DNA of 64,000 nucleotides from assembly GCF_029201445.1 (NCBI RefSeq), contig NZ_CP102381.1, positions 1,612,001 through 1,676,000 of the forward strand, given 5' to 3'. The translations under genes and the position numbers were made by a program. The stretch is from Thiomicrorhabdus lithotrophica. GTDB taxonomy: Bacteria > Pseudomonadota > Gammaproteobacteria > Thiomicrospirales > Thiomicrospiraceae. Within the stretch, counting starts at the first letter, position 1. Every line of letters begins with the position of its first letter. Shown one piece after another: positions 5,527 through 29,392 of this stretch. The notes beneath the pieces are model-generated. The model was not told where the DNA came from. It made no database searches and worked only from the letters and a program-made list of their open reading frames with translations.

Positions 5527-5966
5527 GAACAACAAGCCTTTAACGATGTACGCTTTTATATTAGGTATGGAAGTAAACAATAAGCTAGAAAGAATAAAAC
5601 ATAGCAGCATTTATGAATGACATAAAATCAGCTACATTAGCTTTCGCTAGGCAATAAAAAAGCCAGACCTCATTCACTCGTAAGTGTTTGAAAAATCTGG
5701 CTTTAGAATGTGGTAGCGGGGGCTGGATTTGAACCAACGACCTTCGGGTTATGAGCCACTTTATACAACAATATCAACAACTTAACAACAATACCAGCAA
5801 CCCGAATAGTCGGTTAAACTACTTTAACCGACTTTATCAAAAGCTATGAAAATTTGTTAGCTCAACTACTAGAATCTTCAAGATTCCGGCAATAAATTGC
5901 ACATACGTAAATAAACCAATAAACTGTCCAGTACAAAATGTTAATTTGAAGTTAGGATTCTTATCC
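5527..5966. other. Intergenic region, left island junction
   Basis: About 440 bp between the MFS gene and the first island gene. Apart from the att repeat and its arm, which has short CAACAAYTTAAC-like repeats and an AGTCGGTTAAA / TTTAACCGACT inverted repeat at about 5808-5836, I see no gene. Confidence 0.6.
5653..5757. repeat. Left island boundary repeat (att copy 1)
   Basis: Perfect 105-bp direct repeat of 29258-29362. It holds the last 47 nt of the initiator tRNA (5711-5757, from the anticodon loop to CCA) and the hairpin terminator that follows the tRNA (5660-5703). Identity stops at 5758, where the tRNA sequence ends and island sequence begins. It marks the outer junction of the whole composite island. 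The A/C-rich arm that follows (to about 5850) is shared with the copy at 13.7 kb. Confidence 0.9.
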
Positions 5967-6275: not shown

Positions 6276-7574
6276 ATGACTATCGAAGCAAATCAAACTG
6301 AAAATACAGAACCTGATACCTTACCTGAAGAACAACACCCTATCAAAGTTGTCATTAATTCATTCGTACATAAAATTCTTGATATTCATGAATGCGCAGC
6401 AACATTCATCCCTATGGCAGCAATAGAGCACAATCAAAATATAGAAAATATTGAAAGTGCACTGGAAAAAGCAAGTAAGCACTTTGAGGATAGCGATCAA
6501 CAAATTAAATTGTCTGCGATTAAAGATATTAGAGAAGTTGATCGAAAAGCAAAAAGAATCATAAATTCAAATTTAACTGAGACACTTGAAAAAAGCTTAT
6601 ACGTAAATATTTTCAGTGCATTTGATCAATTTACTGGAGATTTGATAAGCATTCTTTACCATAAAAAACCCGAACTATTTAATTCCATCAATAAAGAAAT
6701 AAAATTATCAGAGGCACTTCAATTCAATTCATTAGATGAACTTCGAATGGTTGTATTAGAAAAAGAAATTGAAACATTAAAAAGAAAAAGTTATTCAGAA
6801 CAGTTTAAAGAAATGGAGAAGATGTTCTCAGTCTCTTTAACAAAGTTTGAAGACTGGCCTCACTTTATTGAAAACTCACAACGACGAAATTTATTCACTC
6901 ATTGCGATGGTATTGTTAGTGAACAGTACATTCAAATCTGCAAAGACATTGGAGCACCTCTAATTAAAGATTTGTCAGTAGGCTCACAACTTGAAATTGG
7001 TGCCAGTTATTTTAACGATGCTTGCGAACGCATAACCGAGGTAGCGGTTATGCTTGCCCAAACACTTTGGAGAAAAATGTTCCCCGAAGAAATTGAAATT
7101 GCTGACAATCAACTCCATGAACTAATTTTTGATTTTCTACATATGGAGTACTGGGGACTATCAATTAAATTAAGCAAGTTCGCAACTACACTTCCAAATA
7201 TATCTTCAGAACAAATTAATAGAATCAATATCGTTAATTATGCAATCGCTCTTTATGGTAGCGATAGAAAACAAGAAGCGATATCTTTATTGAATAAAAC
7301 TGATTGGAGTGCTTCCACCTACGACTTTAAATTAGCTTTCGCAGTTTTAACTGATGACTATCAAGAATCACGAAAACTTATGTTACTTATCGGGAAACAA
7401 GGTGAACTAATTAGTGAATTATCCTATATAGATTGGCCGTTATTTAAGTATTTTAGAGAAAATAAATATTTCCTTGAAACATATGAAGAAATTTATGGTT
7501 ACCCTTATATTTCAAAAGCTCTAAAAGAAGCTGAGAAAACTAAGGAAGAAGCACAAACAGTCAATAATTCATAA
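6276..7574 (+). CDS. HEPN-like hypothetical protein
   Basis: Largely helical protein of 432 aa. Around residues 200-225 it reads ENSQRRNLFTHCDGIVSEQY, which contains an R-x4-H motif (RNLFTH) of the type that forms the ribonuclease active site in HEPN domains. It is preceded by helices around SAFDQFTGDL that also fit the fold. Many HEPN proteins are RNases in toxin or abortive-infection systems. The C-terminal region has TPR-like helical pairs. I cannot name the family; the HEPN reading is inference from one motif and its context. The gene follows the excalibur gene by 54 bp and is followed by a truncated reading frame and an IS. Confidence 0.55.
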   Translation: MTIEANQTENTEPDTLPEEQHPIKVVINSFVHKILDIHECAATFIPMAAIEHNQNIENIESALEKASKHFEDSDQQIKLSAIKDIREVDRKAKRIINSNLTETLEKSLYVNIFSAFDQFTGDLISILYHKKPELFNSINKEIKLSEALQFNSLDELRMVVLEKEIETLKRKSYSEQFKEMEKMFSVSLTKFEDWPHFIENSQRRNLFTHCDGIVSEQYIQICKDIGAPLIKDLSVGSQLEIGASYFNDACERITEVAVMLAQTLWRKMFPEEIEIADNQLHELIFDFLHMEYWGLSIKLSKFATTLPNISSEQINRINIVNYAIALYGSDRKQEAISLLNKTDWSASTYDFKLAFAVLTDDYQESRKLMLLIGKQGELISELSYIDWPLFKYFRENKYFLETYEEIYGYPYISKALKEAEKTKEEAQTVNNS

Positions 7575-9166: not shown

Positions 9167-11425
9167 ATGATTAACGATTTTAAACAAATAGATTCACTTA
9201 GCCCCTCTGATTTTGAATTTTTTGTAAAAGAGGTTTTTGAAGATGCTGGGTGGAGTGATGCTGTAATAACTCAAGTGGGAAAAGAATATTCCCATGGCGA
9301 CGGTGGAGTTGATATCTTTGCTTATAAGAATCGAAGAAAGTTTGCCATTGAGGTAAAGCAAAGAAATATAAGGAATGCGGTAGATACCAAAGCTTTAAAT
9401 CAATTAGTTACTGGTGCAAGGCTTGCTAGCGTACAAAACATGATTCTTGTCACTAACTCCTACTTTACTTCCGAGGTAAAGGTACGAGCATTGAAGTTAG
9501 GCGTTGAATTATTTGATCGTGATGGGCTACAAAACTTGTGGATTGAAAAGCATTCTGAGGTTGGTCGGAACATTAAAATGCGCCAATATCAACAGACGAT
9601 AAATGATGAAGCATATGCCAAAATTAAAGAACAGAAAACCAAACTACTTATCGAAATGGCAACAGGGCTAGGCAAAACCTACACTGTGGCAAACCTTGTA
9701 AAGACATTGATAAAAGATGAAAGTTCTTACATAAAAAAAGTATTATTTTTAGCTCACCAAGTTGAAATCCTTCTTCAGTCGGTAACTGCATTCAAAAACA
9801 TTCTAGGCATTGGCACCTACTCATTCTCAGCTTGCTTTAATGGCGCCTCACCTGAAAACACTGACTTTGTATTTGGTTCGTTTGACACTTTCTACTCCAA
9901 AATTAATGAACTTAAAGAGGATGAGTTTGATCTTGTCATCGTAGATGAAGCACACCATGTACCAGCAAGAACATATTCACAAGTTGTTGATTTCTTACAA
10001 CCACAGATACTTATTGGTCTAACAGCGACACCATTTAGAGAAGACTTAAAAAGTGTTACGGAATTTTTTGGAGGTAATGATGGCCATATCGGGAAGTATG
10101 ATTTAGCTTGGGCTCTAAAACATAACAAGTTAGCGTTCCCTAAATACAAAGTTATGCTTGATGACTTGAATAACGGACAGCTTGAAATGCTTAAAAATGG
10201 AATGTCTGTATCTGATGTAGATAAGTCATTATTTTTGCATAAAAAAGATGAAGAAATAGTCCGATTGATAGAAAAGGAAGTTTCTCAAGAGAACCTTCAA
10301 ATTCCAAAGGGAATCGTTTTCTGTAAAAGCATTGAACATATGCAATACATGATTAAATTCTTTAAACCAGGTGCAGCGACACTGGTCCATTCTAAAATGC
10401 CCGATTCTCAACGAAGAGAAAATATACGCTCCTTTCGAGAAGGAGACCATAGTTACATACTTGTTTGCGACCTCTTTAATGAAGGGATTGATATTCCAGA
10501 AACGAACCTACTTGTTTTTATTAGATATACAGGCTCAAAAACTGTTTGGCTTCAACAATTAGGGCGAGGTTTGAGAAAAACAAAATCTAAAGAATTTGTA
10601 GTAGTATTAGACTTTGTAGGTTCTTTAGAAAGGCTCAATGAAGTTCATTCATTGGCTGAAAGCATCAGAAGCACACCTATTGACAAGAATAATTACGAAG
10701 AAAGATATAAACCAGAAAAACAAGAAAGGGGAAAAAAATCTGTAATTCATAATGACTATATAGAAGTTACATACAACGAAGCAGCCGCAGACGTCCTCGA
10801 ACTAATAAAAAACCTTAATTACAGGTTGAACTTCAGAGCGGAAGCTTTAAACCTCATCAGACATTTCTATGAAACTGAAGGTCATTTTCCTGATTTCTAT
10901 AAGATAGAAGAGGTACTTAAAGGCCTGACCCGAGACCAAATCAATACTCTATTTGGTTCTTATTTATCTTTTCTTATAATAGCCTTCAATCTAAGCACTT
11001 TCGACTCAAAATTAGCATTCATACATGAAAAACTCCATAACATTTTAAGAAAATTTGAAGAAAGTGGTTTCACTCCAAGCCATAAAGCTATTAGTCAGGA
11101 ATCAATTTTTCAGCACCTTCCACTGTTCACAGAGAAGGAGGTAAATAGCATTTTGAAGCGAAACACTGCTCATAAAGAACGTCACATAGCAGAAATCACA
11201 GAACACACTGAAATCGCCTCTAAGAAAATTCACGAAGCTGCAGTTTTAAAAAACCCTATTCAACAAAAAGAAACTGACATCGAAAAAATAGTACTTTTAG
11301 AAAAATACAAACATCTTGAAAAAGTATCTGACTTGAGAAATGTACCAGATACTGACATGAAAAACATTAAACGTCTTTTTAAATCAAAACTTCTATTTTT
11401 AAAGGTAATCGAAAATGCAAAATAA
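9167..11425 (+). CDS. Mrr-type nuclease/SF2 helicase fusion
   Basis: Protein of 752 aa. Residues 1-110 form an Mrr-like PD-(D/E)xK nuclease domain: HGDGGVDIF (D49) and AIEVKQR (E62, K64). An SF2 helicase follows: Walker A-like ATGLGKT at about 165, DEAH at 260-263, LTATP at 285-289, and the arginine-finger motif QQLGRGLRK at about 462. The last 250 residues are helical and of unknown function. Such fusions cleave or remodel foreign DNA in restriction-like defence; the specific target is unknown. It overlaps the next gene by 11 bp, so the two proteins probably act together. No methyltransferase is adjacent, which argues against a standard modification-dependent pair. Confidence 0.85.
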   Translation: MINDFKQIDSLSPSDFEFFVKEVFEDAGWSDAVITQVGKEYSHGDGGVDIFAYKNRRKFAIEVKQRNIRNAVDTKALNQLVTGARLASVQNMILVTNSYFTSEVKVRALKLGVELFDRDGLQNLWIEKHSEVGRNIKMRQYQQTINDEAYAKIKEQKTKLLIEMATGLGKTYTVANLVKTLIKDESSYIKKVLFLAHQVEILLQSVTAFKNILGIGTYSFSACFNGASPENTDFVFGSFDTFYSKINELKEDEFDLVIVDEAHHVPARTYSQVVDFLQPQILIGLTATPFREDLKSVTEFFGGNDGHIGKYDLAWALKHNKLAFPKYKVMLDDLNNGQLEMLKNGMSVSDVDKSLFLHKKDEEIVRLIEKEVSQENLQIPKGIVFCKSIEHMQYMIKFFKPGAATLVHSKMPDSQRRENIRSFREGDHSYILVCDLFNEGIDIPETNLLVFIRYTGSKTVWLQQLGRGLRKTKSKEFVVVLDFVGSLERLNEVHSLAESIRSTPIDKNNYEERYKPEKQERGKKSVIHNDYIEVTYNEAAADVLELIKNLNYRLNFRAEALNLIRHFYETEGHFPDFYKIEEVLKGLTRDQINTLFGSYLSFLIIAFNLSTFDSKLAFIHEKLHNILRKFEESGFTPSHKAISQESIFQHLPLFTEKEVNSILKRNTAHKERHIAEITEHTEIASKKIHEAAVLKNPIQQKETDIEKIVLLEKYKHLEKVSDLRNVPDTDMKNIKRLFKSKLLFLKVIENAK

Positions 11426-13547
11426 ATCTTTTTCAGATTATATTGAATTGTGTGAATTCGTTAAAAAATTTGATGTTGTTGTGGACCATAACTTTGAAAA
11501 ATTAACAAAAAAGATTTTTGCATTAGTGGATTCAAGAGTCTTGCCTATAAAAACAGTGACTATTGAAGCAATACTAGAGCTTTCCGCAATAAACCTAATA
11601 AAAATAAAAGGCTTGGGTTCAGGGTATGCATTCCTACTTGAAGAAGTGCAGAAGAAACTTTCTAACAAAAAATTTGACCCCCTTGAAGTATTAAATGCTT
11701 CTCAGAAGATATGCTTCTGTCAATCATTAATCAGAGATTTGCGGATAAGTCATAAGGGTCTCAATTCCCAAGAAAATAAATACCTAAATAATCTGGTCAA
11801 AGATGTGGGAGATTTAGGGTTAATTGACATTCTAGAACTAGACAAGGAACTACTTCAACAGCAAAAAGGCTATGGAAAAGCTAAAATCCAAATAATTTCT
11901 GAGTTAAAAGATAAAGTCTTCTTAGAGATGTTGGCCGTTTCAAAATTAGGTAGAAATTTCAAGTACGGTCAGTCTGACTTAATTATATCTATGAAATCTA
12001 GCTTTTATTCGGAGTTAGATCTTGAAGAAGCCATAATTGACGAAATTGAAGACTTTGCTCTTGATTTACCTGACAAAGAAAGTCAGATATTCCTTTCAAG
12101 ACTAGGATTTAATCATAAAATTGTCACCTTGGAAGAATTAGGCCAGAAATATGGTCTTACAAGGGAAAGAGTTCGACAGGTTGACAAAAAATTATTTAAT
12201 CAATTTATTAAAAGATTCACAATTTCTTTGGAGTTCATCAAGAATAGAATTCTTTATGAAACTGAAGATAAATTTCTTACCATGCCTATTTTGTATTCTC
12301 TTTTTGATCGAGAACAAAGCTTTTATGCATTTTTTTCACGGCTTCTACAAAAGAATGACGAGTTCGATGTAGATGAATTTAAACCATTAACAAACCAGAC
12401 ATTACTTGAAGATTTCTGTACTCAAAATAAATCACCATATGATAAAGACCACCTAATCAATGAACTGATTTCTAACACTGGAATGAACTTTATCAAGGCT
12501 TCCATTACCGTAGACTATCTTTTAGATCAAGGTATATTTACTCAAAACGTCGATGGTCGATACCAACCATCAAAATTAGGAAAAAAAGAAGCTTTAGCAC
12601 ATGTGCTATTAAGCTTTCCTAATGGTCTACCCTGGAAAGATGCGGCCCTTGTGACAAATAGCAAACAGTATTCCAGAAGTAATATATACACAGATAGGCT
12701 AGATAGTGCTTTTATTTCATCTGAATATATCTACCAATCTGGAAGTGGAACTTATAGGCACGTAATTTTTTCTGATTTGAATGATGTAGATATCGATCAA
12801 ATCATTCTTGATTCAAAATATTTTCTCGAGGCACTTCCTGAGAAATCCTGCCATTTAAATGAGTTCTTTAAAACCTATGACAGTAAAATTGGCTATTTTG
12901 AATTAAGACACTTACTTAGAGAATACGGTAATGTTCATGGAATATACTTCAACGGACGCTCTAATAAAGATAGTATTTCATTGAATGAAAATGCCAACCT
13001 TGGTGGTCAGCGAGAATTAATCGTAAATCTGCTAAATAATGCCTCTGGGCCTCTTTCTAAGACTGAAATTGCTCAACAGATTCGAAGTCAAAGCTTAAAG
13101 CATGCAAACTTTTACATACATGAGCTAATGAATGAAAAGAAAGTCATTCGTGTTGAAAACATGCAATATTCAACACCTGAAAAAATGTTCAAAGATATTA
13201 ATATTGATACTCTTCTTTCTCAAATTAAAGAACTCGTAACTCATGCATCCACCCCTGTTGAAGCAGATGTAGTTCGACAAAAATTAAACGCCAAAAACAA
13301 CTTAAGCTATTCCAAATATTTTTATTTATCGTTAGCCGATGTATACTTGGATGTAGTAAATTTATATAGAGTCAAAGGCTTTCTATCTTCAACTCCTATC
13401 GAATTTAATGGTTTATCAGGATTAACCAATCTTGTATGTGATAAAGAACTTTCGTTCAGAGAGAATACTGAGATTGTTAAAAACAAGGTTCTAATCACAA
13501 ATACTGTGGCAGACTCCGCTGTCTCTCAATTCTATTACATTAGGTAG
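11415..13547 (+). CDS. Protein with sigma-70 region-4-like HTH and alpha-CTD-like HhH
   Basis: Protein of 710 aa. Residues 47-82 (ILELSAINLIKIKGLGSG...) resemble the helix-hairpin-helix of the RNA polymerase alpha C-terminal domain, and a second HhH-like stretch lies near 147-169 (QQKGYGKAKIQII). Residues 220-262 match sigma-70 region 4: DKESQIFLSRLGF, then TLEELGQKYGLTRERVRQV. Further winged-helix-like segments lie toward the C-terminus (about 535-600). NCBI-style names for such proteins are 'sigma factor-like helix-turn-helix DNA-binding protein'. It overlaps the Mrr-helicase by 11 bp. I infer a DNA-recognition or transcription-sensing partner of the helicase. No characterised defence system with this pairing comes to mind. 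Confidence 0.7.
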   Translation: MQNKSFSDYIELCEFVKKFDVVVDHNFEKLTKKIFALVDSRVLPIKTVTIEAILELSAINLIKIKGLGSGYAFLLEEVQKKLSNKKFDPLEVLNASQKICFCQSLIRDLRISHKGLNSQENKYLNNLVKDVGDLGLIDILELDKELLQQQKGYGKAKIQIISELKDKVFLEMLAVSKLGRNFKYGQSDLIISMKSSFYSELDLEEAIIDEIEDFALDLPDKESQIFLSRLGFNHKIVTLEELGQKYGLTRERVRQVDKKLFNQFIKRFTISLEFIKNRILYETEDKFLTMPILYSLFDREQSFYAFFSRLLQKNDEFDVDEFKPLTNQTLLEDFCTQNKSPYDKDHLINELISNTGMNFIKASITVDYLLDQGIFTQNVDGRYQPSKLGKKEALAHVLLSFPNGLPWKDAALVTNSKQYSRSNIYTDRLDSAFISSEYIYQSGSGTYRHVIFSDLNDVDIDQIILDSKYFLEALPEKSCHLNEFFKTYDSKIGYFELRHLLREYGNVHGIYFNGRSNKDSISLNENANLGGQRELIVNLLNNASGPLSKTEIAQQIRSQSLKHANFYIHELMNEKKVIRVENMQYSTPEKMFKDINIDTLLSQIKELVTHASTPVEADVVRQKLNAKNNLSYSKYFYLSLADVYLDVVNLYRVKGFLSSTPIEFNGLSGLTNLVCDKELSFRENTEIVKNKVLITNTVADSAVSQFYYIR

Positions 13548-13648: not shown

Positions 13649-13673
13649 GTAATTTAAGCTAAATAACAGGCAT

Positions 13674-13767
13674 AAAAAAACCAGACATCTCATAAGAGAA
13701 TATCTGGCTTTAGAATGTGGTAGCGGGGGCTGGATTTGAACCAACGACCTTCGGGTTATGAGCCACT
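13674..13767. repeat. Internal island boundary repeat (att copy 2)
   Basis: Second copy of the tRNA-derived att sequence. Positions 13703-13765 match att copy 1 exactly over the end of the terminator and the 47-nt tRNA fragment. The left arm of the terminator hairpin has diverged (CCAGACATCTC...) but still pairs. The A/C-rich arm to about 13840 resembles that of copy 1. It separates the left and right island modules. Confidence 0.85.
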
Positions 13768-16574: not shown

Positions 16575-17204
16575 CTAATTCCAATTTTTAGCTATACTGA
16601 TAGCAACAGGTGAAAAGCTCTCTAGCCTGCCAAGCTTAGCAGTGCTCAATTCATCAATTAATAAACTAACTATTTCATCATCCTCTAAGTCATTAGATGG
16701 ATTATTAATCCCGCTAGTTAAAAAAAGAGCTTCAATAAAACGCTTTCTCTTTTCGATTAATACTCTATTATTAACTTCCAAATCACCAAGGTTAAGAATT
16801 CTTACAGCCTCAATAGCATCATCATCCAAACCTTTTATTCGCCCACTTAAAAAGTATTTAAACCTGTCCTCCCAATCATTATCAAGTGGAGTCAACGGAA
16901 GCAATTGAGAACCATGAGAAGAGTCACATTGATTCCGATTAGTGCAACTTGCAACAATATTGCTAAAATCCAAAGCTAGAGTAGGGTTAGCATTTCTAGG
17001 AATAACATGCTCATTCATACAATCTTTGTTTTCACCAGTTATACTCTGACAACAATAAGCACATAAATAATGCTGCTCTTCCAAACATTTCAGTCGAATA
17101 TCTTCCCTTTCAACATGAGTTAAATTGTCATAAGTTCCCCTTGGATTTGCTCGCCTCCAATTAGTCAAACTTGTAGGTTCAATACTCTTAATTATTTTTT
17201 TCAT
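16575..17204 (-). CDS. ptuB: Septu HNH nuclease PtuB
   Basis: HNH endonuclease of 209 aa in the TIGR02646/PtuB group. It begins IKSIEPTSLTNWRRANP and has the zinc and catalytic pattern CAYCCQSI, NEHVIPRN, FSNIVASCTNRNQCD, then LLPLTP. In Septu the PtuB nuclease works with the PtuA ATPase to degrade phage DNA. The start overlaps ptuA by 17 bp, which supports a coupled two-gene operon. TIGR02646 nucleases also occur in some retrons, but I see no reverse transcriptase or msr/msd-like RNA nearby, so plain Septu is the better reading. Confidence 0.85.
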   Translation of the reverse strand: MKKIIKSIEPTSLTNWRRANPRGTYDNLTHVEREDIRLKCLEEQHYLCAYCCQSITGENKDCMNEHVIPRNANPTLALDFSNIVASCTNRNQCDSSHGSQLLPLTPLDNDWEDRFKYFLSGRIKGLDDDAIEAVRILNLGDLEVNNRVLIEKRKRFIEALFLTSGINNPSNDLEDDEIVSLLIDELSTAKLGRLESFSPVAISIAKNWN

Positions 17205-18555
17205 GTCTTAGTATTTGTTTTTTTAAGAAAAGTTTAGCCTTTATCAACTCAATATTTGTCGGTGAAATATCTGATTCCAGTTCGCTTATCAATGAAGACG
17301 ATAGATCAAATTTTGAATCTTGAATGGCATCCAACAAGTCTTTAAGCTTACGGTCTACACTTTCATTTCGAATACTAGTATCCATCACCCCAAGAAGAAC
17401 TTCATTGGCGTCTAAACCATATAACTCAGACTCTTCAATCAATTCTCCATCATCCAAAACATAACAAAGAACGTCCTTATAATCACTAATAACCAAAGGA
17501 GAATGTGTCGTCAATACAAATTGACAGTTTTTAAAAGTGCCCGTCAACCTAGAAATAAGAGTTCTTTGCCATTTCGGATGTAAATGCAAATCGACTTCAT
17601 CAATTAATACTATCCCATCACCTAAAAGTGGGTTTTCTAAGGATGGATTCATCATTGCTAATCGCCTTGCAATATCTCCCACTAACGCCATCAATGATTT
17701 TTCACCTTGCGATAGCTGGGCAACGTTTAGAGTTTCACCATCCTTATTAATTGCCATATGTAAGCGAGGTTTTCTTTGCACCCTTAAATTATCAAAACCA
17801 GGCATAAATTCTTTAATAGCCTCTCTAACGGCTACCAATTGAACATCTCTAGATGATGCATTTAGTTCATTCAGTTTATCCCATATCAGATTATTTTCAC
17901 CAAACATTTCCGACATTTTCTTCAGCACATCAGAGGACAGTCCTGCTTCATTTTCAGAATCTTCCCTTTCCCGAAACCATTCGAAAAACCTTCTAAAATC
18001 AACACCTCTATTCAGTGAATTGTCATAACCGTCAATTTGAGAGAAGGTATGCTTACTCCTGATTTTTAGGGGAATGTCTAAAACAGTTCTTTCTACAGGA
18101 TAATACGCAATCAGAGGTAGAGATTCATCAGGAGAAGCCTCTAAAATATCACGATACAAATTCGCAAGTTCAGAAGCATCTTTTAATTCGCTAACATACT
18201 CAGCTTTACGGCTCCTTTTAGTTTTTGCAACAACCCACTCAAAATTACGCTTACACTCACCTCCAAAGAAATCAATCCCTTTCTTATCAGAAACTTCAAT
18301 AGTAATCGAAGATGAAGATTTTCCATTCTTGATTATCATCTCACTAATAGGACTGCCATTTCCTTTTTCAGTTTTGAGCCTTGCAACAAACCAACTCAAA
18401 GAAGTTGATAATGATTTAAGCAATGACGTCTTACCAGCCCCGTTCCCCCCAACGAAAACAGTTACATTGGAGGTCTTTGTTATAGTTGGAGCTAAAGGGA
18501 CATCAATCTCTGAAAATCGACCAATATTTTTTAATCTAAACTTAATAATATCCAT
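17188..18555 (-). CDS. ptuA: Septu ATPase PtuA
   Basis: AAA/ABC-type ATPase of 455 aa: Walker A FVGGNGAGKTSLLKS near the N-terminus, ABC-like signature LSQGEKSLMALVGD, Walker B GIVLIDEVDLHLHPKWQR, and switch histidine segment LTTHSPLVI. It forms the sensor or ATPase half of Septu with PtuB. I start it at the ATG at 18555 (MDIIKFRLKNIGRF), the canonical N-terminus of the family. An open frame continues upstream to 18687, but that stretch is the HsdR relic read in the wrong frame. The ribosome binding site is weak. Confidence 0.85.
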   Translation of the reverse strand: MDIIKFRLKNIGRFSEIDVPLAPTITKTSNVTVFVGGNGAGKTSLLKSLSTSLSWFVARLKTEKGNGSPISEMIIKNGKSSSSITIEVSDKKGIDFFGGECKRNFEWVVAKTKRSRKAEYVSELKDASELANLYRDILEASPDESLPLIAYYPVERTVLDIPLKIRSKHTFSQIDGYDNSLNRGVDFRRFFEWFREREDSENEAGLSSDVLKKMSEMFGENNLIWDKLNELNASSRDVQLVAVREAIKEFMPGFDNLRVQRKPRLHMAINKDGETLNVAQLSQGEKSLMALVGDIARRLAMMNPSLENPLLGDGIVLIDEVDLHLHPKWQRTLISRLTGTFKNCQFVLTTHSPLVISDYKDVLCYVLDDGELIEESELYGLDANEVLLGVMDTSIRNESVDRKLKDLLDAIQDSKFDLSSSLISELESDISPTNIELIKAKLFLKKQILRHEKNN

Positions 18556-18610
18556 AATCACTTTTTCTATTTGATGCGTGTTAATGTTTTTTATTCTACA
18601 GCCCAGATAT

Positions 18611-18880
18611 TTAAGCATACAAATACTTCTGACACCCAACAAACGTTTCCCGATTGATTGCTCTCGAACCAAAGTAATTCGCGGCATCCGTCAGCCTATC
18701 GTATTTCAATTCAAGTAATGTGCGCATCTTGCTTGGTGATAACATCCACTCACCATCTTGAACATACTTACTAAAAATAAAGTCTTGCTATTTTTTATCT
18801 GAGAAATGGCTTTCAATGGAGTCATGCGCTTTTTGCTCTCGCTGCATAGACAAAAAACGCCAATACATCGTATATATCAT
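18611..18880 (-). pseudogene. C-terminal relic of a type I restriction subunit HsdR
   Basis: The minus strand reads FIFSKYVQDGEWMLSPSKM, then LLELKYDRLTDAANYFGS, and ends NRETFVGCQKYLYA before a stop. This fits the C-terminal tail of HsdR proteins (FVLxxYV, LLxLKYxxxxDA, FxGFQKYLY). One in-frame stop (near 18794) and the loss of everything upstream of about 18880 show it is dead. It ends 56 bp before the ptuA start. Confidence 0.65.
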
Positions 18881-19560: not shown

Positions 19561-20559
19561 CTAATCCACTTTTGAATACTGCCTATTTAATGAGACATAG
19601 AACTTTTTGGGTCTTTTATTCCATTTAATAGAATCCATAAAAACACTTTTATATGGATTCTGAATTATTTCTGGTACATAACCTTCACTCTCCATCTCAT
19701 CGCGGTTAACAAGATAAAGAAAGTATTCATCAGCCTTTTGTTTAGATACGTCTATTTCATTATCTGACCAAAAGAAGTTATACTCCCCAATGTATGATTT
19801 AACTTCAATAAACCTATCATGTAATGCAGACTCATGGTTATTAAAAGACACCACATCATAGCCAGCGTTAACATCATATTCAGAAATTTGCACAACCTTT
19901 TTGTAGTTTGATGAATGCCTAAGACGCTTTTTTTCAAACTCAACAACGAACTTCTCTGCCTCTTCACCGTAAAGCCTTTGTCTATGAAGTATTTCATCCA
20001 GTTCATCCAACCCCATTATTCCGCGTTTTTTTTGGGGTAAGATTGATTTATCGAACAACTTCTTATACTCATTGTTGATGAAGTATTTTTGAATTCTTTT
20101 ATCTGGATGAGCATTTAAAAAACTGAAATCTATTAAGAGCTGTTTAAAATTAGAATATTTAAATGTAAACGCAGAATTGTCTATTTGAACATGATTATAA
20201 ATAACATCGAAAGAGATATATTGATTACTAAATATTCGATGAAAAGCATCATCAGATGCTAAGATTATAAAAATTCTATCCAAAATTATGTTACTTAAAT
20301 AAGCCTTATTGACGAGGTTTGACTGAATTACCGTATCAACTTGTACATAACCATTTTCATCAAAACTTATTAAACGACAAGCTTGCAGAAAAGGAACACA
20401 TCCATCAAAATTTTTCTTTCCATCTATAACTCGATTATAGAAGAAGTTAGCAAAATCCTCATCGTTCCAGCCAGATTCAGAAGCCAATATATTATTTAAT
20501 AATTCCCAATAGATTGAAGGACTTCCTAAACTCTGAAATTTACTAACTTCTTCGAGCAT
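19561..20559 (-). CDS. DUF3883 domain protein (nuclease-like)
   Basis: Protein of 332 aa. The C-terminal 90 residues match DUF3883: HDRFIEVKSYIGEYNFFWSD, NEIDVSKQKADEYFLYLVNR. The E-x-K in IEVKS and the upstream Asp of GYDVVSF fit a PD-(D/E)xK nuclease core. The N-terminal 230 residues are helical and unassigned. DUF3883 domains are common in restriction-like systems and may cut DNA. It overlaps the SNF2 helicase gene by 17 bp and is the last gene of a leftward set with that helicase, a ParB-like protein and a C5 methyltransferase. Confidence 0.75.
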   Translation of the reverse strand: MLEEVSKFQSLGSPSIYWELLNNILASESGWNDEDFANFFYNRVIDGKKNFDGCVPFLQACRLISFDENGYVQVDTVIQSNLVNKAYLSNIILDRIFIILASDDAFHRIFSNQYISFDVIYNHVQIDNSAFTFKYSNFKQLLIDFSFLNAHPDKRIQKYFINNEYKKLFDKSILPQKKRGIMGLDELDEILHRQRLYGEEAEKFVVEFEKKRLRHSSNYKKVVQISEYDVNAGYDVVSFNNHESALHDRFIEVKSYIGEYNFFWSDNEIDVSKQKADEYFLYLVNRDEMESEGYVPEIIQNPYKSVFMDSIKWNKRPKKFYVSLNRQYSKVD

Positions 20560-22516
20560 AATCCTCCATCAATGCTTTAACTAAGTCACTCTCATCTTCA
20601 TCATCTATACGTGCAAACAACGGAATATCATCATCTATAATCTTAGACATCCTTTCAGCTTTAATCGCCAAACGTTTATTGATAACTCCATCAATTGAAT
20701 TCGTTGAAACAACGTAGTAATAATGAGTTTCTTGGCCGTCAGGTAAACCATAGCGATGGATACGATCCTTTGATTGTAAAAACATAGAACAGTTGTAATC
20801 ACGTTCCATATAAATAGCATTATGGCAACCTTTGTGTAAAGAGATTGACTCAGACACTGAAAACGGGTTAGCAATAACGACTTGAAAATCCATATTAGAT
20901 GGGTCATTAAACTTTTCTATCGTTTGTTCGCGTTCATCTTGAGCAACTTCACCAATCAGTAGTTTTGAAGAAATATTTTCAGCCAATAGAAATTCTTGTA
21001 ATTGTTTAGCGTTCTGGATAAATATAGTCCAAATTATTACCTTACCATCAGATGGAAAGACCCTATCAACAATCAAACTTTTGATTTTACTGAACTTTAC
21101 AGGAACTCTATTTGCAAAACTTTCTATTTTAGTAAATATTTCTGAATCATCTAGGTATTCATTAATGCCCTCAGTGTAGCGAACATTTGGGTCGACCTCG
21201 TCGAGCAAGTAATTATGCTCAAGGGCATCTTTTAAAGGTTTTAACAATAGAGAAGGATTTGTCGATGCTTGGCGTAATCGTATTAACTTTGCTTTATTCA
21301 AAACATCGTGAACCGTAGCCGCCCCATTTTCTTGAAATAATTTGATATATTTACTTTCAATATAGTCATATATCTCACGCTGATAAGCATCCATATCTAC
21401 TTCAACAATATGCTCTATTGGAGAAGCAAGTCCTAAATCCTTTTTCTTTATACGGATAAAATAAGGGGATATGTTTTTCTTAAACTGAAGAACTCTTGCA
21501 CTATCCGTATCAGAGTTCTTAGTCATATCTTTCAAGTTATGCCTATGAAATTTTAAAACTTCCATATGTTTGTGTGGATAAATAAATTTGTATAGATTGA
21601 AGAGGTCTTCATAACCATTAGGCACTGGAGTCCCAGTTAAAATAATCCTAGATGCGGCTTCTTTGGAAATTTCCATAATACTGTTCGCTGCAACTCCATA
21701 CTGGCTTTTAATTCGATGCGCTTCATCCACAACAATCATTGTCTTATGCCTTTTTAGGTAATCCGTGATTGCTTCTATTAGAGGCTCCACTCCTGCATGG
21801 GTTATAATTGTAATCTCGGCAGGATTACCAGAGTATAAATGCTGTAACCTTTCAGATTTAACTACATCACCAGAGATTCGTTGAATCGATGGATTACACC
21901 CATAACACTCAAGGTATTCATTTTCCCATGGCGCAAAAGCGGATAAAGGGCCTATAACCATAAGTTTATCAACATGCTTAGGGTTATCATTGGGTAGACT
22001 TTTTAAATAAGTATATGCTCCATATACTATTGAGGTTTTACCGGCACCTGGTACAGCAAAATTACAAGCATTTTGAGCAAATGCCATATGAAAAGCTGAG
22101 AGTAATTGTATTGGATACAAAGACCTCACCATATCCCTACTCAAAACATCTTTAAACTTTTTAAAATCTTCAACCAACTCTTCATTATTACCAAAAGCAT
22201 TATCTCGGATTAACCTTGCTTTTTCTGTAAACTCTTGGAATGTATTAATTTCTCGGTTATAACTTTCAATATCTTTTTTTGCATCTGCTGAAAGTTCAAC
22301 AATGAAATTGTATTCAGCGAGAAGGCTTGTCAACTCATCAATTACCTCAACCTTTTCATCTTCATCATAAGGGACAGATACAAACCCCTCATTTAGCTCT
22401 CCACCAAGCTTTTTTAAAGAGAAAGACAAACGACGGTCATCAATAATAGATTCTATTGCCCCTGTAAGAAGAAACTTTCCTTCCTTACTATTAAGAGTTA
22501 ATTGATGACTATTCAC
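20543..22516 (-). CDS. SNF2-family DEAH helicase/translocase
   Basis: SF2 ATPase of 657 aa. Motif I VPGAGKTSIVYGAYTYL lies near residue 157, motif II DEAH (VVDEAHRIKS) near 260, motif III LTGTPVPNGYEDLFNLYKFI near 292, and motif VI QSKDRIHRYGLPDGQ near 587. The TGTPxxN and DRxHRxG forms are typical of SNF2 translocases. It would supply DNA translocation for the set. It starts 2 bp after the ParB-like gene stop and overlaps the DUF3883 gene by 17 bp, so the three are tightly coupled. Confidence 0.85.
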   Translation of the reverse strand: MNSHQLTLNSKEGKFLLTGAIESIIDDRRLSFSLKKLGGELNEGFVSVPYDEDEKVEVIDELTSLLAEYNFIVELSADAKKDIESYNREINTFQEFTEKARLIRDNAFGNNEELVEDFKKFKDVLSRDMVRSLYPIQLLSAFHMAFAQNACNFAVPGAGKTSIVYGAYTYLKSLPNDNPKHVDKLMVIGPLSAFAPWENEYLECYGCNPSIQRISGDVVKSERLQHLYSGNPAEITIITHAGVEPLIEAITDYLKRHKTMIVVDEAHRIKSQYGVAANSIMEISKEAASRIILTGTPVPNGYEDLFNLYKFIYPHKHMEVLKFHRHNLKDMTKNSDTDSARVLQFKKNISPYFIRIKKKDLGLASPIEHIVEVDMDAYQREIYDYIESKYIKLFQENGAATVHDVLNKAKLIRLRQASTNPSLLLKPLKDALEHNYLLDEVDPNVRYTEGINEYLDDSEIFTKIESFANRVPVKFSKIKSLIVDRVFPSDGKVIIWTIFIQNAKQLQEFLLAENISSKLLIGEVAQDEREQTIEKFNDPSNMDFQVVIANPFSVSESISLHKGCHNAIYMERDYNCSMFLQSKDRIHRYGLPDGQETHYYYVVSTNSIDGVINKRLAIKAERMSKIIDDDIPLFARIDDEDESDLVKALMEDYARRS

Positions 22517-22518
22517 GC

Positions 22519-23934
22519 TTATTTATCCAACTTTTTTCTGATTTCCTCAGACAGTCTTGAAATTTCAACAATCAACTCTTTTGAAGAACTTAATTTTTCA
22601 ACAGCCCCAGAGTCATGAATGGACTTCAGTGAATTCTTCACTTCCATTAATAATTGATCTAAATCCTTTTCTTGCAATATAGATAACGCTGTTTCTATTA
22701 AAGAACCCACCTGCCCTAGAACGTCGGGCCGAGAAAAAGCCTCTTGCTCTTTATCAATTGCTTCCAAGGCTTGAACAGCCCTATTTACAAGCTTTATTGG
22801 TTGATTTGATTCTTGCTTATTCTTCAACTTATCAGTGTATAGCTCAAGATTATCTGTAAGACACTCAAGTGCATTATTTTTAAATTTATGATCACGGTCA
22901 TTTAGGTGAGAAACAATATCCTCAGAGTTATAGTCAATTTCTTGTTCTGATTTTAGAATTGGGTTAATTTTTTGAAAATGACTATCTCTGAATTCTATCC
23001 AAAGATTTCTGTCCCCAAAAATATGACTTTCCCTTCGCCCATGTGCTAAAACTCTGAACTTTTTACCCTCATATTTAACGCGAATATAGTCAAAAGCAAT
23101 CATTTGTAAATCTGCTACATCTTTTTTCTTATACCCGTCAAAACCTTTGGCACTTGGTTCACTTCCTCCCATAGCTTTAAGCCACTTAGTGAGATTTATA
23201 AACTGGTCTTCTCGCCCATCTAATTGAGTATAAATCCCCTCATAACCAAGGTAATCAAGATATTCATCCATTGTTTGGACGACATCAAGATATTCTATAA
23301 CTGTTGACTCATCTTCTCCCATCCAGTCATATATTTTTCCTATTGCTACTTTATTTGGCTTCTTACTATCATAAGGTTTCTCACCATTTAACCTTTTATA
23401 TAACCCTTTTGCCTTAAGATATTTCTCTATTGGATTATAACCAAGCTTCTCGTCCTCTCCCATTTGATATGAGGTCTCAAGCTTCTCAATTTCCAAGGGG
23501 TTTTCATCTAAGGTAACTGGTAATATTACGGCTTTAAAATAATCATACTTTTTGAGTCTGCTTAATAACATTGCCCGTCTATTACCATCAATGATTATTC
23601 CATCTTTAGTAATAATTCCAATTTTTTCTTGACCAAAACGTTCTAGACTTTTAAGAGTCTTATCATTCCTATCTTTTTTTGATTTATATAAAAGCTCTGC
23701 AATCTTGGCTCTTCCCTCTTTAGAGTACTCATCAATACTATGCCCTTGCTGTTCAAGCGACAAGGTTCTACTCAGAATGCGACCGTTATACTTGTTATAA
23801 ACTAAATACTCCAAAGGAATCTTATAAACATCAAAGCCTACTAACTCACCCATCCAAGGTAGTTCTTGAAAACCAATACGGTTAGCTTCGATTCGTAAAC
23901 CTTCAATATTTTTCGTTCGCAATTCTGGGTTCAT
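22519..23934 (-). CDS. ParB/sulfiredoxin-like domain protein
   Basis: Protein of 471 aa. Around residues 105-130 it reads KDGIIIDGNRRAMLLSRLKK, the core of the ParB N-terminal (sulfiredoxin-fold) domain, whose relatives hydrolyse CTP or cut DNA. It is preceded by SLEQQGHSIDEY-type elements and followed by helices (KVAIGKIYDWMGEDESTVIEY) that could be an HTH. The last 100 residues look coiled. It is not a chromosome-partition ParB: no ParA is near, and it sits with a methyltransferase and a helicase. In that setting I infer a DNA-binding or nicking component. A 190-bp gap separates it from the methyltransferase. Confidence 0.7.
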   Translation of the reverse strand: MNPELRTKNIEGLRIEANRIGFQELPWMGELVGFDVYKIPLEYLVYNKYNGRILSRTLSLEQQGHSIDEYSKEGRAKIAELLYKSKKDRNDKTLKSLERFGQEKIGIITKDGIIIDGNRRAMLLSRLKKYDYFKAVILPVTLDENPLEIEKLETSYQMGEDEKLGYNPIEKYLKAKGLYKRLNGEKPYDSKKPNKVAIGKIYDWMGEDESTVIEYLDVVQTMDEYLDYLGYEGIYTQLDGREDQFINLTKWLKAMGGSEPSAKGFDGYKKKDVADLQMIAFDYIRVKYEGKKFRVLAHGRRESHIFGDRNLWIEFRDSHFQKINPILKSEQEIDYNSEDIVSHLNDRDHKFKNNALECLTDNLELYTDKLKNKQESNQPIKLVNRAVQALEAIDKEQEAFSRPDVLGQVGSLIETALSILQEKDLDQLLMEVKNSLKSIHDSGAVEKLSSSKELIVEISRLSEEIRKKLDK

Positions 23935-24124
23935 AAATAACCTTTTAAAATTTTGTAAAATTAAACTTGCCTAATATCAATTACCGTTAGAAAACAGGTT
24001 TCACTTAGTTCGTAAAACCTTTAAACAGAAATCATCTTTAGGTCTTCTTTTTATAGATTGACTTTTCCTCTAAACAAACCCTGATTTACTCCGGATTCTA
24101 AAAGCTTTTGTTATATGGCTTAAT

Positions 24125-25822
24125 TCATCTTTTTTTGGAATCATCTTTGTAATCGTTTATCAGCCAAAGTAAGGCATAAGCCATAACAACCTGAATAACT
24201 GGCACCCTACCCTTAGGTAAAATATCGCATTTAATATACCCAAGTTCATCAAAATTGTAAAACTCATTCGATTTTATACGTATAGATTTAACAATATTTA
24301 TAGGATTGTTTGAGTCAATCAAGTCTAAATCGGTTTCATAGAGTTCTTGAAGGCTTATACCTTGCAACCCCTCTACAAGTCCATGCATATATTTATTCAG
24401 CATTGTTAAATCTACATTATTGTTTTTTAAAGCACTCTCCAGTACCTCGAAGTCTTTAGCTTTAAACTCATATACTCCATGACCTACTCCAGTCCCGAAA
24501 TAGGCAACAACAAACCATTTAGATGTATCTTTTACTCCGTAAGTATCGTTAAAGTTCTGTAAATCTACTGTCATATTACCAAGCTTAACGGGATGCCTTC
24601 TAAACTTAGCATTACTTAATCTTGTCTTTGGGGTCTCAAAAGTGCATACGTCAAAAGAATTCAGGTTAATGATTTTAAGGTAATTACCTTTTAGCTTACT
24701 GAAGCCTCTTTTTCGAGGTGTTTTACCTTTTAAACAAGCTTTTATCGCTCTAGCAAGTGCTGCACTAAGATGGGGAGAAACTGAATTGCCAATTTGTTTC
24801 CACTTTGTTGATTCGGTTCCAGTGAATTGGTAAACGAATGGATACCCCATCAATGTCGCTGCTTCTCTTATTGTAGGTAAACGATATTCTCCATTTTCCT
24901 CACGATTCAATTCTGATTTGAAAATCAAAGACTCTCGGGTTGATGCAGACCTTGTAGCCATAATTGTTCGACAGCTTCTATCTTCATTTTCAGGGAATGA
25001 CATTTTTCCCATATAAGGGTGATTTGTTTTTAGATGTTGCGCTTTTTCCCATTCAATCTTGTATAACCCTGTGTCGTAAAAGTGGTCTGTCAGTTCAGAC
25101 ATTTTCACTTTTAATTTTGGATAGTTAGGATCAACAAATTCACTATTATCATTTCTTTTCAGATAAGGTGAAGGAAGTCTAGATTTAATATATCCAAGAG
25201 TTTTATGATTCAACCAATTTGATATTGGTTTTGGAAATTCACCAGTTTCAATAAATTCACCAGCAATAAATCTCCTCCTAGATTGAGGAGCACCATAATC
25301 AGCTGCATTAAGAACATAACCTTTAGTTTGAATAGCAATATCATCGGCCTTTTTGCCAAGAGCTCTAGCCCAGCGACTAAGATTCAAATCTGAAAAAGTA
25401 TAGTTAGGTTGGATAAACTTTTCTGATTGCGGTACATTTTCCAAATACCATGCCTGCAATATCGATTTTTTTTGATGTTTTTTGACACAAATGACTCTAA
25501 GAAATGAAAGAATCAATTGAATCCCTGATATTTTGCAGGCTTTTCCGGCTTTATTGGACATTGAAAATGAAACACACGAAGGGCTTCCAATCAATATTTC
25601 AGTATCAGGAATCCCATCAATTTCTAGTACATCCCCAGAGTCCTCACCCCAGAAATCCATTACATCTTTTACAGAATCTTCTAAACCATGATTCAAGTTA
25701 TGTGAATCAATAGCTGGCTGCCAGAAATCAATTCCCATTACAACCTCAAAACCTTCCTGACGAAAGCCTTCGGAAAACCCTCCTGCACCACAGAAAAAAT
25801 CGATTACTCTTAACTTCACCAT
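24125..25822 (-). CDS. C5 DNA cytosine methyltransferase with long C-terminal extension
   Basis: Protein of 565 aa. Motif I DFFCGAGGFSEGF at residues 8-20; motif IV GSPSCVSFS with the catalytic Cys; motif VI WYLENVPQ; motif VIII APQSRRRFIAGE; motifs IX-X LMGYPFVYQF and QIGNSVSPHLSAALARAI. The core ends near residue 365. About 200 further residues, including KWFVVAYFGTGVGHGVYEF, are not part of a standard methyltransferase. The target sequence cannot be read. As the first gene of a leftward set with ParB-like, SNF2 and DUF3883 proteins, it probably protects host DNA from the others. Confidence 0.85.
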   Translation of the reverse strand: MVKLRVIDFFCGAGGFSEGFRQEGFEVVMGIDFWQPAIDSHNLNHGLEDSVKDVMDFWGEDSGDVLEIDGIPDTEILIGSPSCVSFSMSNKAGKACKISGIQLILSFLRVICVKKHQKKSILQAWYLENVPQSEKFIQPNYTFSDLNLSRWARALGKKADDIAIQTKGYVLNAADYGAPQSRRRFIAGEFIETGEFPKPISNWLNHKTLGYIKSRLPSPYLKRNDNSEFVDPNYPKLKVKMSELTDHFYDTGLYKIEWEKAQHLKTNHPYMGKMSFPENEDRSCRTIMATRSASTRESLIFKSELNREENGEYRLPTIREAATLMGYPFVYQFTGTESTKWKQIGNSVSPHLSAALARAIKACLKGKTPRKRGFSKLKGNYLKIINLNSFDVCTFETPKTRLSNAKFRRHPVKLGNMTVDLQNFNDTYGVKDTSKWFVVAYFGTGVGHGVYEFKAKDFEVLESALKNNNVDLTMLNKYMHGLVEGLQGISLQELYETDLDLIDSNNPINIVKSIRIKSNEFYNFDELGYIKCDILPKGRVPVIQVVMAYALLWLINDYKDDSKKR

Positions 25823-26211: not shown

Positions 26212-26241
26212 ATTCGATTTTTTAGATTTTAGGAGTTGAAT

Positions 26242-27882
26242 ATGACTGGCACAGTAATCGTAAGACTGAAAGGAATTAAAGACGAAGGTAATCTCACACA
26301 TGATTTGGGTGAACGGAATGGACTAAATTATGTAGACCACACAAAGTCTCATCTTAACATGATTGTAATCGGACAACCTTTTGCGGAATCAAAACAAAAA
26401 TTCAAAGAACAGAAGAAATTCATCGTAAACGATTTTAACCAAGAAAAAGCGCAGCAACGACAATTCATTATGCCTGATTTTTTGGATGAGAAAGAGTATG
26501 TAAAAGAAAGGCGTAAGGTTCGTAACTGGCAATCACATATGAAAAGCCATCTTGCAGGATTTATTGGCTTTGGGCATGATGCCCAAGCCAACTCTCTTGA
26601 CCGTGAAAAGATGGATGCGTGTGCCAAAGAATATGTTAAAACTTTGTGTGACCGACATGGTATCGAATTGCTGTATTTAATACGTCATGAAGATGAGACA
26701 ACACCACACTATCACTTTCTTACAACAAACTATAACCCTGCAACAAAGCATACCATTCGATTAGATAGAAACCTCTTACGTAAAGAACAGGATAAGATTG
26801 GTGAGTCTTTTTCCTCAATGGGGTTAACTCGTGGTTTGGACAAACAAGAACGTTTAAAGCTCGCTGCTGAAAAACTGAATCAGCCGATGATAGACGGCCG
26901 TTATAGTGCAGAAGTTTGGAAAGAATCGAATGTCATTCATCGTTCAGTCAAACAACTGCATGAGGACTTACCCTTAGAAATTGAAGATAAAAAAGAAGAG
27001 ATACAACAAATCCAAGCTCAAATCTCAAAACAACAAGCGAAGATTGAAAAGAATCAAAAACTCATTGCCAAGAATGAACATACACTACTTCAACTTGCCA
27101 TCAAAGAAGCAAGTTCACAAGTAAAGCAAGAGAAGATAGAGAAACGTCTGAAAATCTATCAAAAACGCATCAACGATGCTCAGGCTGAAATAGACAGATT
27201 GTCTGTTGAATTCGCCCCACCCAAAACCTCAATCATTGAATACGTGTCTGGGTATGAAAAACCCCTAATAGGTCCGCCTAAACCCACTATCAAAAAAACC
27301 AAAGTGGTGAGCGTTAAGAATGCCAATGCTAGTTACAAAGCCGCTGAAGCTTATAAAAGAAAATTGGAGCAACAAGAGTTTGAGCTTAAAAACCAAAAGG
27401 CCAAAGCAAAGCAGGAACAGTTAGTCATTGAAGAAGAACTGAAAGCCTTCTTCGCTAAACTGGCTTATAAACACATGATGGTCTTTGGCAAACCGTTTGA
27501 TAGCCAAGATGAGATGTTAGATTTTATTAAATGGTTTGATCAAGATACCGGTTGGGTGACCACCAACATTGGAACACGCTTTAAAACCCAAACTGAAAAC
27601 AACCAAGTGGTTCGAGTAGTTGTGGAACATAGCGAAGGAATAAGTGCTAAACAAAAAGCAAAAACCCTACTGTTTGCAACGCATAAAGCAGAAATGACAA
27701 AAGGACACTTTAAAGGACTTGATGAGGTGTTAATCGAATTTTGCAAAATGATGAAACAATCACCAGGAAAATACGACTTTGAGTTAATACTCTCTGATGA
27801 ACAGAAAACCACTTTAACGAAAAATGGGATTTTTGAAGAAGATAATCTACAAGAGTTAGTCTTACCTGGAATGGGCTTGTGA
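26242..27882 (+). CDS. mobV: MobV-family relaxase (Mob_Pre)
   Basis: Protein of 546 aa. It starts MTGTVIVRLKGIKDEGNLTH at the ATG at 26242, placed 6 nt after an AGGAG box. The relaxase signature RHEDETTPHYHFLTT at about residues 150-165 has the metal-binding HxDExxPHxHF pattern of Mob_Pre proteins, which nick oriT to begin conjugative transfer in trans. From about residue 240 it is a long coiled coil (KKEEIQQIQAQISKQQAKIE). No type IV secretion genes are present, so the island would need a helper element. The structured element just upstream is a candidate oriT. Confidence 0.9.
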   Translation: MTGTVIVRLKGIKDEGNLTHDLGERNGLNYVDHTKSHLNMIVIGQPFAESKQKFKEQKKFIVNDFNQEKAQQRQFIMPDFLDEKEYVKERRKVRNWQSHMKSHLAGFIGFGHDAQANSLDREKMDACAKEYVKTLCDRHGIELLYLIRHEDETTPHYHFLTTNYNPATKHTIRLDRNLLRKEQDKIGESFSSMGLTRGLDKQERLKLAAEKLNQPMIDGRYSAEVWKESNVIHRSVKQLHEDLPLEIEDKKEEIQQIQAQISKQQAKIEKNQKLIAKNEHTLLQLAIKEASSQVKQEKIEKRLKIYQKRINDAQAEIDRLSVEFAPPKTSIIEYVSGYEKPLIGPPKPTIKKTKVVSVKNANASYKAAEAYKRKLEQQEFELKNQKAKAKQEQLVIEEELKAFFAKLAYKHMMVFGKPFDSQDEMLDFIKWFDQDTGWVTTNIGTRFKTQTENNQVVRVVVEHSEGISAKQKAKTLLFATHKAEMTKGHFKGLDEVLIEFCKMMKQSPGKYDFELILSDEQKTTLTKNGIFEEDNLQELVLPGMGL

Positions 27883-28015: not shown

Positions 28016-28342
28016 ATGAATACAACATCAACAACTTTAAGTCTTGACCAAGCGGCTAGTTATCTGAACTGCAATAAAGAAACAGTTAGAAGATTAGCAC
28101 AAGCTAACAGATTACCTGCGGGTAAAGTCGGTCGTAAATGGATTTATATCCAAAGGGACCTTGAAAACTATATCCGAAAACAATACTCTACTTATGAGAG
28201 TGTTGTGCAAGTTGTTGACAACGATGAGGAATCATTATGTCAATATACCTTAGAAACGACATCTGGTGGATTGAATTCACTTCACCAGATGGAACAAGAA
28301 TACGACGCTCTGCTGCGACTGAAGACAGACAACAAGCGTTAG
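28016..28342 (+). CDS. Excisionase-type DNA-binding protein
   Basis: Protein of 108 aa. Residues 8-60 match the excisionase/MerR-like winged HTH: LDQAASYLNCNKETVRRLAQ, then LPAGKVGRKWIYIQRDLENYI. Such proteins help the integrase excise the element and often repress their own operon. The integrase gene starts inside it, giving a 106-bp overlap, so the C-terminal third of this protein is encoded by DNA that also encodes the integrase N-terminus in another frame. Confidence 0.8.
   Translation: MNTTSTTLSLDQAASYLNCNKETVRRLAQANRLPAGKVGRKWIYIQRDLENYIRKQYSTYESVVQVVDNDEESLCQYTLETTSGGLNSLHQMEQEYDALLRLKTDNKR

Positions 28343-29257: not shown

Positions 29258-29259
<2 letters not shown>
28237..29259 (+). 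CDS. int: Tyrosine recombinase integrase
   Basis: Site-specific recombinase of 340 aa. The catalytic residues are visible: R188 in LETGLRESNVTLLRW, H275-x-x-R278 in WHDFRHTWATWH, and the nucleophile Y310 in MVKRYAHF. The N-terminus SIYLRNDIWWIEFTSPDGTR is the usual integrase arm/SAM-like start. A ribosome binding site (AGGAATC) precedes the ATG inside the excisionase gene. The gene ends two bases into the att repeat at the initiator tRNA, the usual position for an integrase that inserts at that tRNA. Confidence 0.92.

Positions 29260-29392
<133 letters not shown>

Follow-up and report, generated by a model that had tools for sequence, protein, structure and literature searches.

What does a nuclease-helicase gene do when it overlaps a gene for a protein with a sigma factor-like part, inside a tRNA-associated island of the bacterium Thiomicrorhabdus lithotrophica? 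The two genes, here called A and B, lie in the window, the whole stretch of 64,000 nucleotides of contig NZ_CP102381.1 that was analysed, and all coordinates below are positions within it. We consider it fairly probable that A and B form a mobile, restriction-like defence module of two proteins, an estimate that covers both the case in which A cuts the invader at once and the one in which its nuclease is let loose on all DNA. The two genes and their parts are as follows (aa, amino acids; HTH, helix-turn-helix; SF2, superfamily 2; ORF, open reading frame).

9167-11425, + strand: gene A, Mrr-type nuclease plus SF2 (DEAH) helicase, 752 aa (ATG ORF, Pfam domains)
9188-9538, + strand: Mrr_cat PD-(D/E)xK nuclease domain of A, aa 8-124 (Pfam PF04471, 4.9e-17)
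9572-10576, + strand: SF2 helicase core of A, aa 136-470 (ResIII, Helicase_C)
10805-11422, + strand: C-terminal extension of A, aa about 547-752, absent from three B-less Mrr-helicase relatives
11415-13547, + strand: gene B, protein with sigma region 4 and a winged-helix-like array, 710 aa (ATG ORF, Pfam)
11541-11915, + strand: N-terminal part of B with two helix-hairpin-helix-like motifs, aa 43-83 and 134-167 (by eye)
12012-12206, + strand: sigma-70 region-4 HTH of B, aa 200-264, recognition helix TRERVRQ (Pfam 1.6e-6, PDB profile search, VIA-align)
12252-13544, + strand: C-terminal winged-helix-like array of B, aa 280-710 (low-confidence model, Foldseek)
12996-13199, + strand: best-supported winged helix of B, aa about 528-595 (VIA-align Z 9.7, root mean square deviation (rmsd) 1.8, 63 aligned)

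Both ORFs are as the initial annotation gave them, and in the window they share 11 bp. A survey of gene neighbourhoods, the check suggested with that annotation, found A and B contiguous, always with A first, in four lineages (the window, Thiomicrospira, Lelliottia and Escherichia coli), in surroundings that are mobile and rich in defence genes. In the window and Thiomicrospira the genes overlap by 11 bp; in E. coli and Lelliottia 1 bp separates them. The length of B ranges from 710 to 816 aa. Identity between the window and the enterobacterial copies is 56-57% for A and 30% for B. Judged from these sequences, the kept gene order and near-contact exceed what chance would be expected to leave at such divergence, and B evolves faster than A. 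Specificity subunits often diverge fast.

The fusion of an Mrr-like domain to a DEAH helicase, claimed for A beforehand, is borne out by Pfam, in which Mrr_cat, ResIII (1.4e-34, aa 136-291) and Helicase_C (9.9e-15, aa 368-470) all match. Alignments here and below have three members, the proteins of the window, Thiomicrospira and Lelliottia. The D...ExK of an Mrr-type nuclease is present in A, with D49, E62 and K64 invariant in all three members, and the motif suggests that these residues are catalytic. Six motifs are identical throughout (HGDGGVDIF, AIEVKQR, ATGLGKT, DEAHH, LTATP and QQLGRGLR), and the SF2 set of Walker A, DEAH, TAT and QxxGRxxR is complete in each member. The top match in the PDB is 7clg_A, a 'putative helicase' (1.5e-38). 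The PADLOC model mREase_IV (PDLC03659) matched at 2.7e-48, aligning A aa 151-486 with model positions 234-568 of 945; assignment of A to this Type IV group was rejected, the similarity being confined to the helicase core rather than spanning the whole model. The C-terminal 200 or so residues of A suggest a docking part for B, because this extension accompanies B in the few sequences compared.

By sequence and predicted fold, B holds a genuine sigma-70 region-4 HTH. The Pfam family Sigma70_r4 matches aa 218-259 with 28.0 bits against a curated cut-off of 24.1 bits; it matches all three aligned members, and at E<=1 no other Pfam domain matches B. When a profile of these three proteins was searched against the PDB, sigma factors came up from 6.5e-9 over B aa about 188-263 (60 matches listed). 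The model of the whole protein has a mean predicted local distance difference test score (pLDDT) of 49.6, built from 3 sequences, and gave no Foldseek match at E 0.001. Within it, aa 205-271 superpose on region 4 of SigA (6ono_B; VIA-align Z 6.9, rmsd 1.7, 67 aligned) and aa 201-312 on a region-4/beta-flap chimera (Z 8.6, rmsd 2.5, 86 aligned), Z values near or below 8 being weak evidence when taken alone. In their recognition helix the members have TRERVRQ, TRERIRQ and SRERIRQ, so that RER[VI]RQ is kept in each; in primary sigma factors the -35 element is recognised by these R, E, R, R and Q residues, and motifs of this type are widespread among region 4 domains. Between the window and Lelliottia, aa 229-255 are 52% identical, against 30% for the whole of B; aa 421-447 (67%) and 541-567 (56%) lie above this, and aa 615-641 and 385-411 are level with it. 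Pfam searches of B with Sigma70_r2 and Sigma70_r3 gave no match, so region 2, which binds the core enzyme and the -10 element, was not found. NCBIfam sigma models reach B aa 143-275 at most and match with their ends only.

The initial annotation had combined this HTH with a helix-hairpin-helix resembling the C-terminal domain of the RNA polymerase alpha subunit (alpha-CTD). The sigma half stands on score and fold; the alpha half is unconfirmed. G-x-G and G-K helix-hairpin motifs can be seen by eye at aa about 61-71 and 149-158. RNA_pol_A_CTD gave no match at E<=10 in B or in its N-terminal part (HMMER filters out most weak matches). Nor is B among the proteins that this family matches in the T. 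lithotrophica genome at E<=0.001. A purpose-built alpha-CTD hidden Markov model (HMM) scored the N-terminal part poorly, its score being reached by 59, 118 and 35 of 500 shuffles for the three members. With a second HMM that includes a domain of an Aurantiacibacter protein described below, the counts were 4, 3 and 35 of 500. A remote relation to alpha-CTD is possible. A HARE-HTH at aa 386-455, suggested by eye from likeness to the consensus, was not borne out: PF05066 does not match B, hhalign probabilities are below 5 for HARE and below 5 for alpha-CTD, and our own HARE-HTH HMM, whose scores were equalled by 2, 0 and 6 of 500 shuffles, has its best places elsewhere in 3/3 members, in places not shared among them.

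Beyond the sigma part lie about 430 aa of winged-helix-like sequence that had gone unmentioned, as had the att copies flanking the pair and the copies in E. coli, both described below. Modelled separately, the C-terminal 431 aa reached a mean pLDDT of 51.0, a low confidence. At E<=0.001 Foldseek matched this model to a SelB C-terminal fragment (4.0e-4), an RNA polymerase III chain (human, 7d58_O; 4.7e-4) and TFIIIC tauB (6.1e-4), and more weakly to RPC62 (0.0036) and ESCRT-II (0.013), all of them tandem winged-helix proteins. A few VIA-align matches span two domains from aa about 452, at rmsd 6.7 to 20. Counted by eye, the array would comprise four to five winged-helix-like units, one of them well supported, which VIA-align places at aa about 529-592.

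Which known systems come closest? No system-specific model of PADLOC 2.0.0, whose output gives no cut-offs, or NCBIfam 20.0 matches A or B above a cut-off or along its full length. The helicase cores nearest to that of A in both libraries are those of mREase_IV and 7clg; the likeness is limited to A aa about 151-512, and A has in addition an Mrr domain at its N terminus and, as a partner encoded separately, B. The order Mrr then SF2 is shared by plasmid-encoded Mrr-helicases at 28-31% identity to A, three of which were examined (L044-L046, those among 61 records whose match starts nearest the Mrr domain). They measure 557-565 aa, align within A aa 2-546 (ending at about 496-546) and lack the C-terminal extension. 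No B is annotated near them; a C5 methylase is nearby in 3/3 (on the opposite strand in one), a Vsr nuclease in 2/3 and an upstream ATP-binding protein in 3/3, with weak HSP90/MzaB-type matches in 2/3. On the Deinococcus plasmid among them, E2/UBC, Mov34/MPN and SAVED (CBASS-type) genes adjoin the Mrr-helicase-methylase operon (L044:9829-13506).

Sigma-type and alpha-type parts occur in other defence systems as well. The MZA system contains the sigma-type protein MzaA, whose region 4 is matched by B at 1.6e-9, covering model positions 639-701 only. Identification of B as MzaA itself was rejected, with 37.2 bits for NF041931 against a cut-off of 800 bits, over B aa 203-264 only. The MzaA model matched in 149/149 genomes, among the matches listed mostly at positions about 233-716 in frames of about 600 aa or more; these are presumably RpoD, and we therefore take MzaA for a sigma factor beyond region 4. 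On an Aurantiacibacter plasmid (L037:3589-10591), an operon with PbeA/PbeC-type genes and a methylase carries, beside the helicase, a 437-aa protein with a clear alpha-CTD (1.3e-10) and sigma region 4 (3.8e-11); at least one further operon of defence type thus unites parts of RNA polymerase. Its helicase is PbeA, weakly similar to A (21%), and 63-108 columns of the 437-aa protein align to B. No other plasmid record had such a protein at 1e-12, nor did any of 110 genomes at 1e-25 in a search without a positive control. Bacterial proteins combining RNA polymerase alpha and sigma features are reportedly described in a 2012 Cell Cycle paper on HARE-HTH. In BREX, BrxL has a sigma-HTH, and PglW has an alpha-CTD followed by three winged HTHs, as DNA-binding parts (PMC12839542); the enzymes differ from A-B, and the likeness is drawn from these published domain descriptions. 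A gammaproteobacterial DndH variant has a sigma-related HTH (PMC10853773), and HARE-HTH has been proposed as a modification reader (PMC11037411). Two weaker alpha-CTD matches (G010:C15:8556-8717 and G030:C118:10073-10237) lie in frames whose lengths, 1417 and 1457 aa, do not fit RpoA and which we would guess are possibly PglW-like.

The pair lies in an island whose borders can be read from three attachment (att) copies.

5650-5757: att copy 1, 3' part of tRNA-Met plus flank, 107/108 identical to 29255-29362
13672-13764: att copy 2, a short way past the end of B, 86% identical to 29259-29362, and 82% over 188 columns to copy 1 with inner flank
28237-29259, + strand: tyrosine integrase of the neighbouring element (Phage_integrase 1.7e-31)
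29255-29362: att copy 3, at the intact tRNA-Met (29316-29392, - strand), from the repeat comparison

These repeats indicate that 5650-29362 comprises two tandem integrations at tRNA-Met. The first segment (5.75-13.7 kb, about 8 kb) holds a 432-aa ORF, a transposase remnant and A-B, which fills over half of it. No integrase was recognised there; the sole one recognised is that at 28237-29259. The second segment (13.76-29.3 kb) holds PDC-S52, Septu PtuB/PtuA, a NOV_C protein, an SNF2 helicase, a C5 methylase and the integrase. In 2-kb bins the GC content is 33-40% inside the island (33-35% in 9/12) versus 38-42% outside. PADLOC matches were found for 3/5 neighbours in the window (3/8 in a set that includes genes outside the island), for 4/4 in Thiomicrospira (PDC-S31, AbiLi/PDC-M38A, PDC-M38B and HEC-06), for 2/2 in Lelliottia (PDC-M40B and PDC-M40C) and for 1/2 in E. 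coli (an Aga-associated model, partial).

The whole pair was found in Lelliottia and Thiomicrospira, and a scan of genome contigs with two short patterns gave 131 matched stretches, 2 of them relatives. Among 5426 complete E. coli genomes, A is present at >=80% coverage in 82 (any match in 105), B in 73 (any match in 83) and the pair in 72 (any match in 105). The four E. coli chromosomal loci examined all lie beside the ydeR/ydeS fimbrial genes; that of E. coli C (L034) has an A interrupted by an insertion sequence (IS) and a truncated B, upstream of hipBA. Three plasmid records carry B and no A gene. Both of those examined (L031 and L032) keep the last 19 codons of A between IS1 and B, and A has therefore probably been lost from them. 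No viral relative was found in IMG/VR with three protein queries, with one DNA pattern or in phage records, an absence that is weak because the search patterns were narrow.

How would such a pair work? In the module that we favour, B would bind DNA via its region-4 HTH and winged helices and recruit A, probably through the C-terminal extension of A; A would then run its SF2 motor along the DNA and cut with its Mrr nuclease. B would thus be the specificity part, the analogue of that in a restriction complex. Because the pair itself contains no methylase, sparing of self would have to depend on what B reads, whether a modification of the DNA, its structure or some feature peculiar to invaders. 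The domains, motifs, gene pair and context are observed; complex formation, DNA target, cutting and protection we infer from them.

Several points weigh against this module. The models of B, each built from 3 sequences, are of low confidence. The plasmid Mrr-helicases, if functional, work without B. Partial or IS-split copies are frequent in E. coli: 33/105 fall below 80%, and since some of the 72 pairs are split by IS elements, fewer than 72 are intact. The neighbours scanned were hand-picked in four lineages with no background rate for PADLOC matches, and the context evidence rests on these four lineages because the family is rare. The pair family was present in 2/62 genomes of the order sample (its own and Thiomicrospira); A at E<=1e-60 was found in its own genome only among 369 genomes of the class sample (at most two candidates scored per genome); and the presumed Enterobacteriaceae sample gave 1/295 genomes, with a truncated B 91% identical to that of E. 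coli. B at 1e-9 was matched in 39/369 genomes of the class sample, 38 of them around the sigma region only, and at E<=0.001 in 225/398 genomes of the phylum sample, where among the matches listed only its own is full length. Across these samples full-length B thus stands at or below a few percent, and the family is rare by this measure.

The rival readings share much of this evidence. The strongest, tentative as it is, is an abortive system, with B as a sensor of infection or of an altered chromosome that frees the nuclease of A on all DNA. Hachiman offers a precedent, with a helicase sensor that releases a nuclease, as described in PMC12278908. The frequent IS-interrupted or truncated E. coli copies may indicate a cost, although gene interruptions are common in neutral cargo too. 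Because abortive release overlaps the favoured module, the probabilities given to the readings do not sum to one. Somewhat less likely is that B regulates A or the host element as a transcription factor or sigma-like protein, with A alone as effector, a Type IV-like Mrr-helicase. Its only Pfam domain, the label 'sigma factor-like HTH DNA-binding protein' in an E. coli record and the B-less relatives of A all fit a regulator; against it stand the lack of Pfam matches to regions 2 and 3, the size of B and its position downstream of A, overlapping or nearly touching it, and the extension that B-linked A carries and the three B-less relatives lack. A sigma factor for A in particular is placed lower because region 2 was not found.

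More doubtful still is a narrower form of the favoured module, in which the HTH of B recognises -35-like promoter elements, or RNA polymerase there, on invading DNA and so brings in the nuclease-helicase. The reading we find most improbable of these gives the pair a maintenance, repair or exclusion function of integrative elements instead of anti-phage defence. The large share of the att-flanked segment that A-B takes up, and the annotated site-specific integrases about 10 kb or less from one E. coli and one plasmid copy, would suit it; the elements and sites are varied, however (tRNA-Met island, ydeT region, IncHI1 plasmids), and the neighbours are of defence type.

Is the pair new? It had been put forward as a pairing with no described system, and it is indeed unnamed in PADLOC-DB 2.0.0 and NCBIfam; text searches of the literature, judged from result listings and the openings of abstracts, returned no paper recognisable as dealing with it and no match to two E. 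coli protein accessions of the pair, within a scope that leaves aside the tables of Vassallo 2022 (PMC9519451) and DefensePredictor (PMC13092281). The use of sigma-type HTHs and alpha-CTDs in defence proteins is already published (PMC12839542, PMC10853773). The parts and the nuclease-helicase kind of defence are known; the reader subunit and the pairing appear undescribed. If B is the specificity part, the pair would be a methylase-free, restriction-like complex with a transcription-factor module as its DNA reader, and it would let the exploitation of promoters by defence systems be tested directly, with the enterobacterial homologues as convenient material. If it reads promoters, the restriction 'site' would be a promoter, which a virus can hardly lose.

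A few further observations follow. A consensus scan gave 16 promoter-like sites versus 17.8 in shuffles and 4 terminator-like sites versus 2.4. The 432-aa ORF that precedes A and B within their segment (6276-7574, + strand) has no convincing family match in Pfam, PADLOC or NCBIfam, and a 548-aa ORF within the island (26236-27882, + strand) has none in Pfam or PADLOC. Septu PtuB/PtuA (16575-18687, - strand) match PADLOC at 1.2e-77 and 4.1e-158. At 19561-25822 (- strand) lie the NOV_C protein, the SNF2 helicase (ZorD/DpdE/DrmD-like), a 471-aa protein without a match and the C5 methylase, a gene set that looks like a separate restriction-type system.

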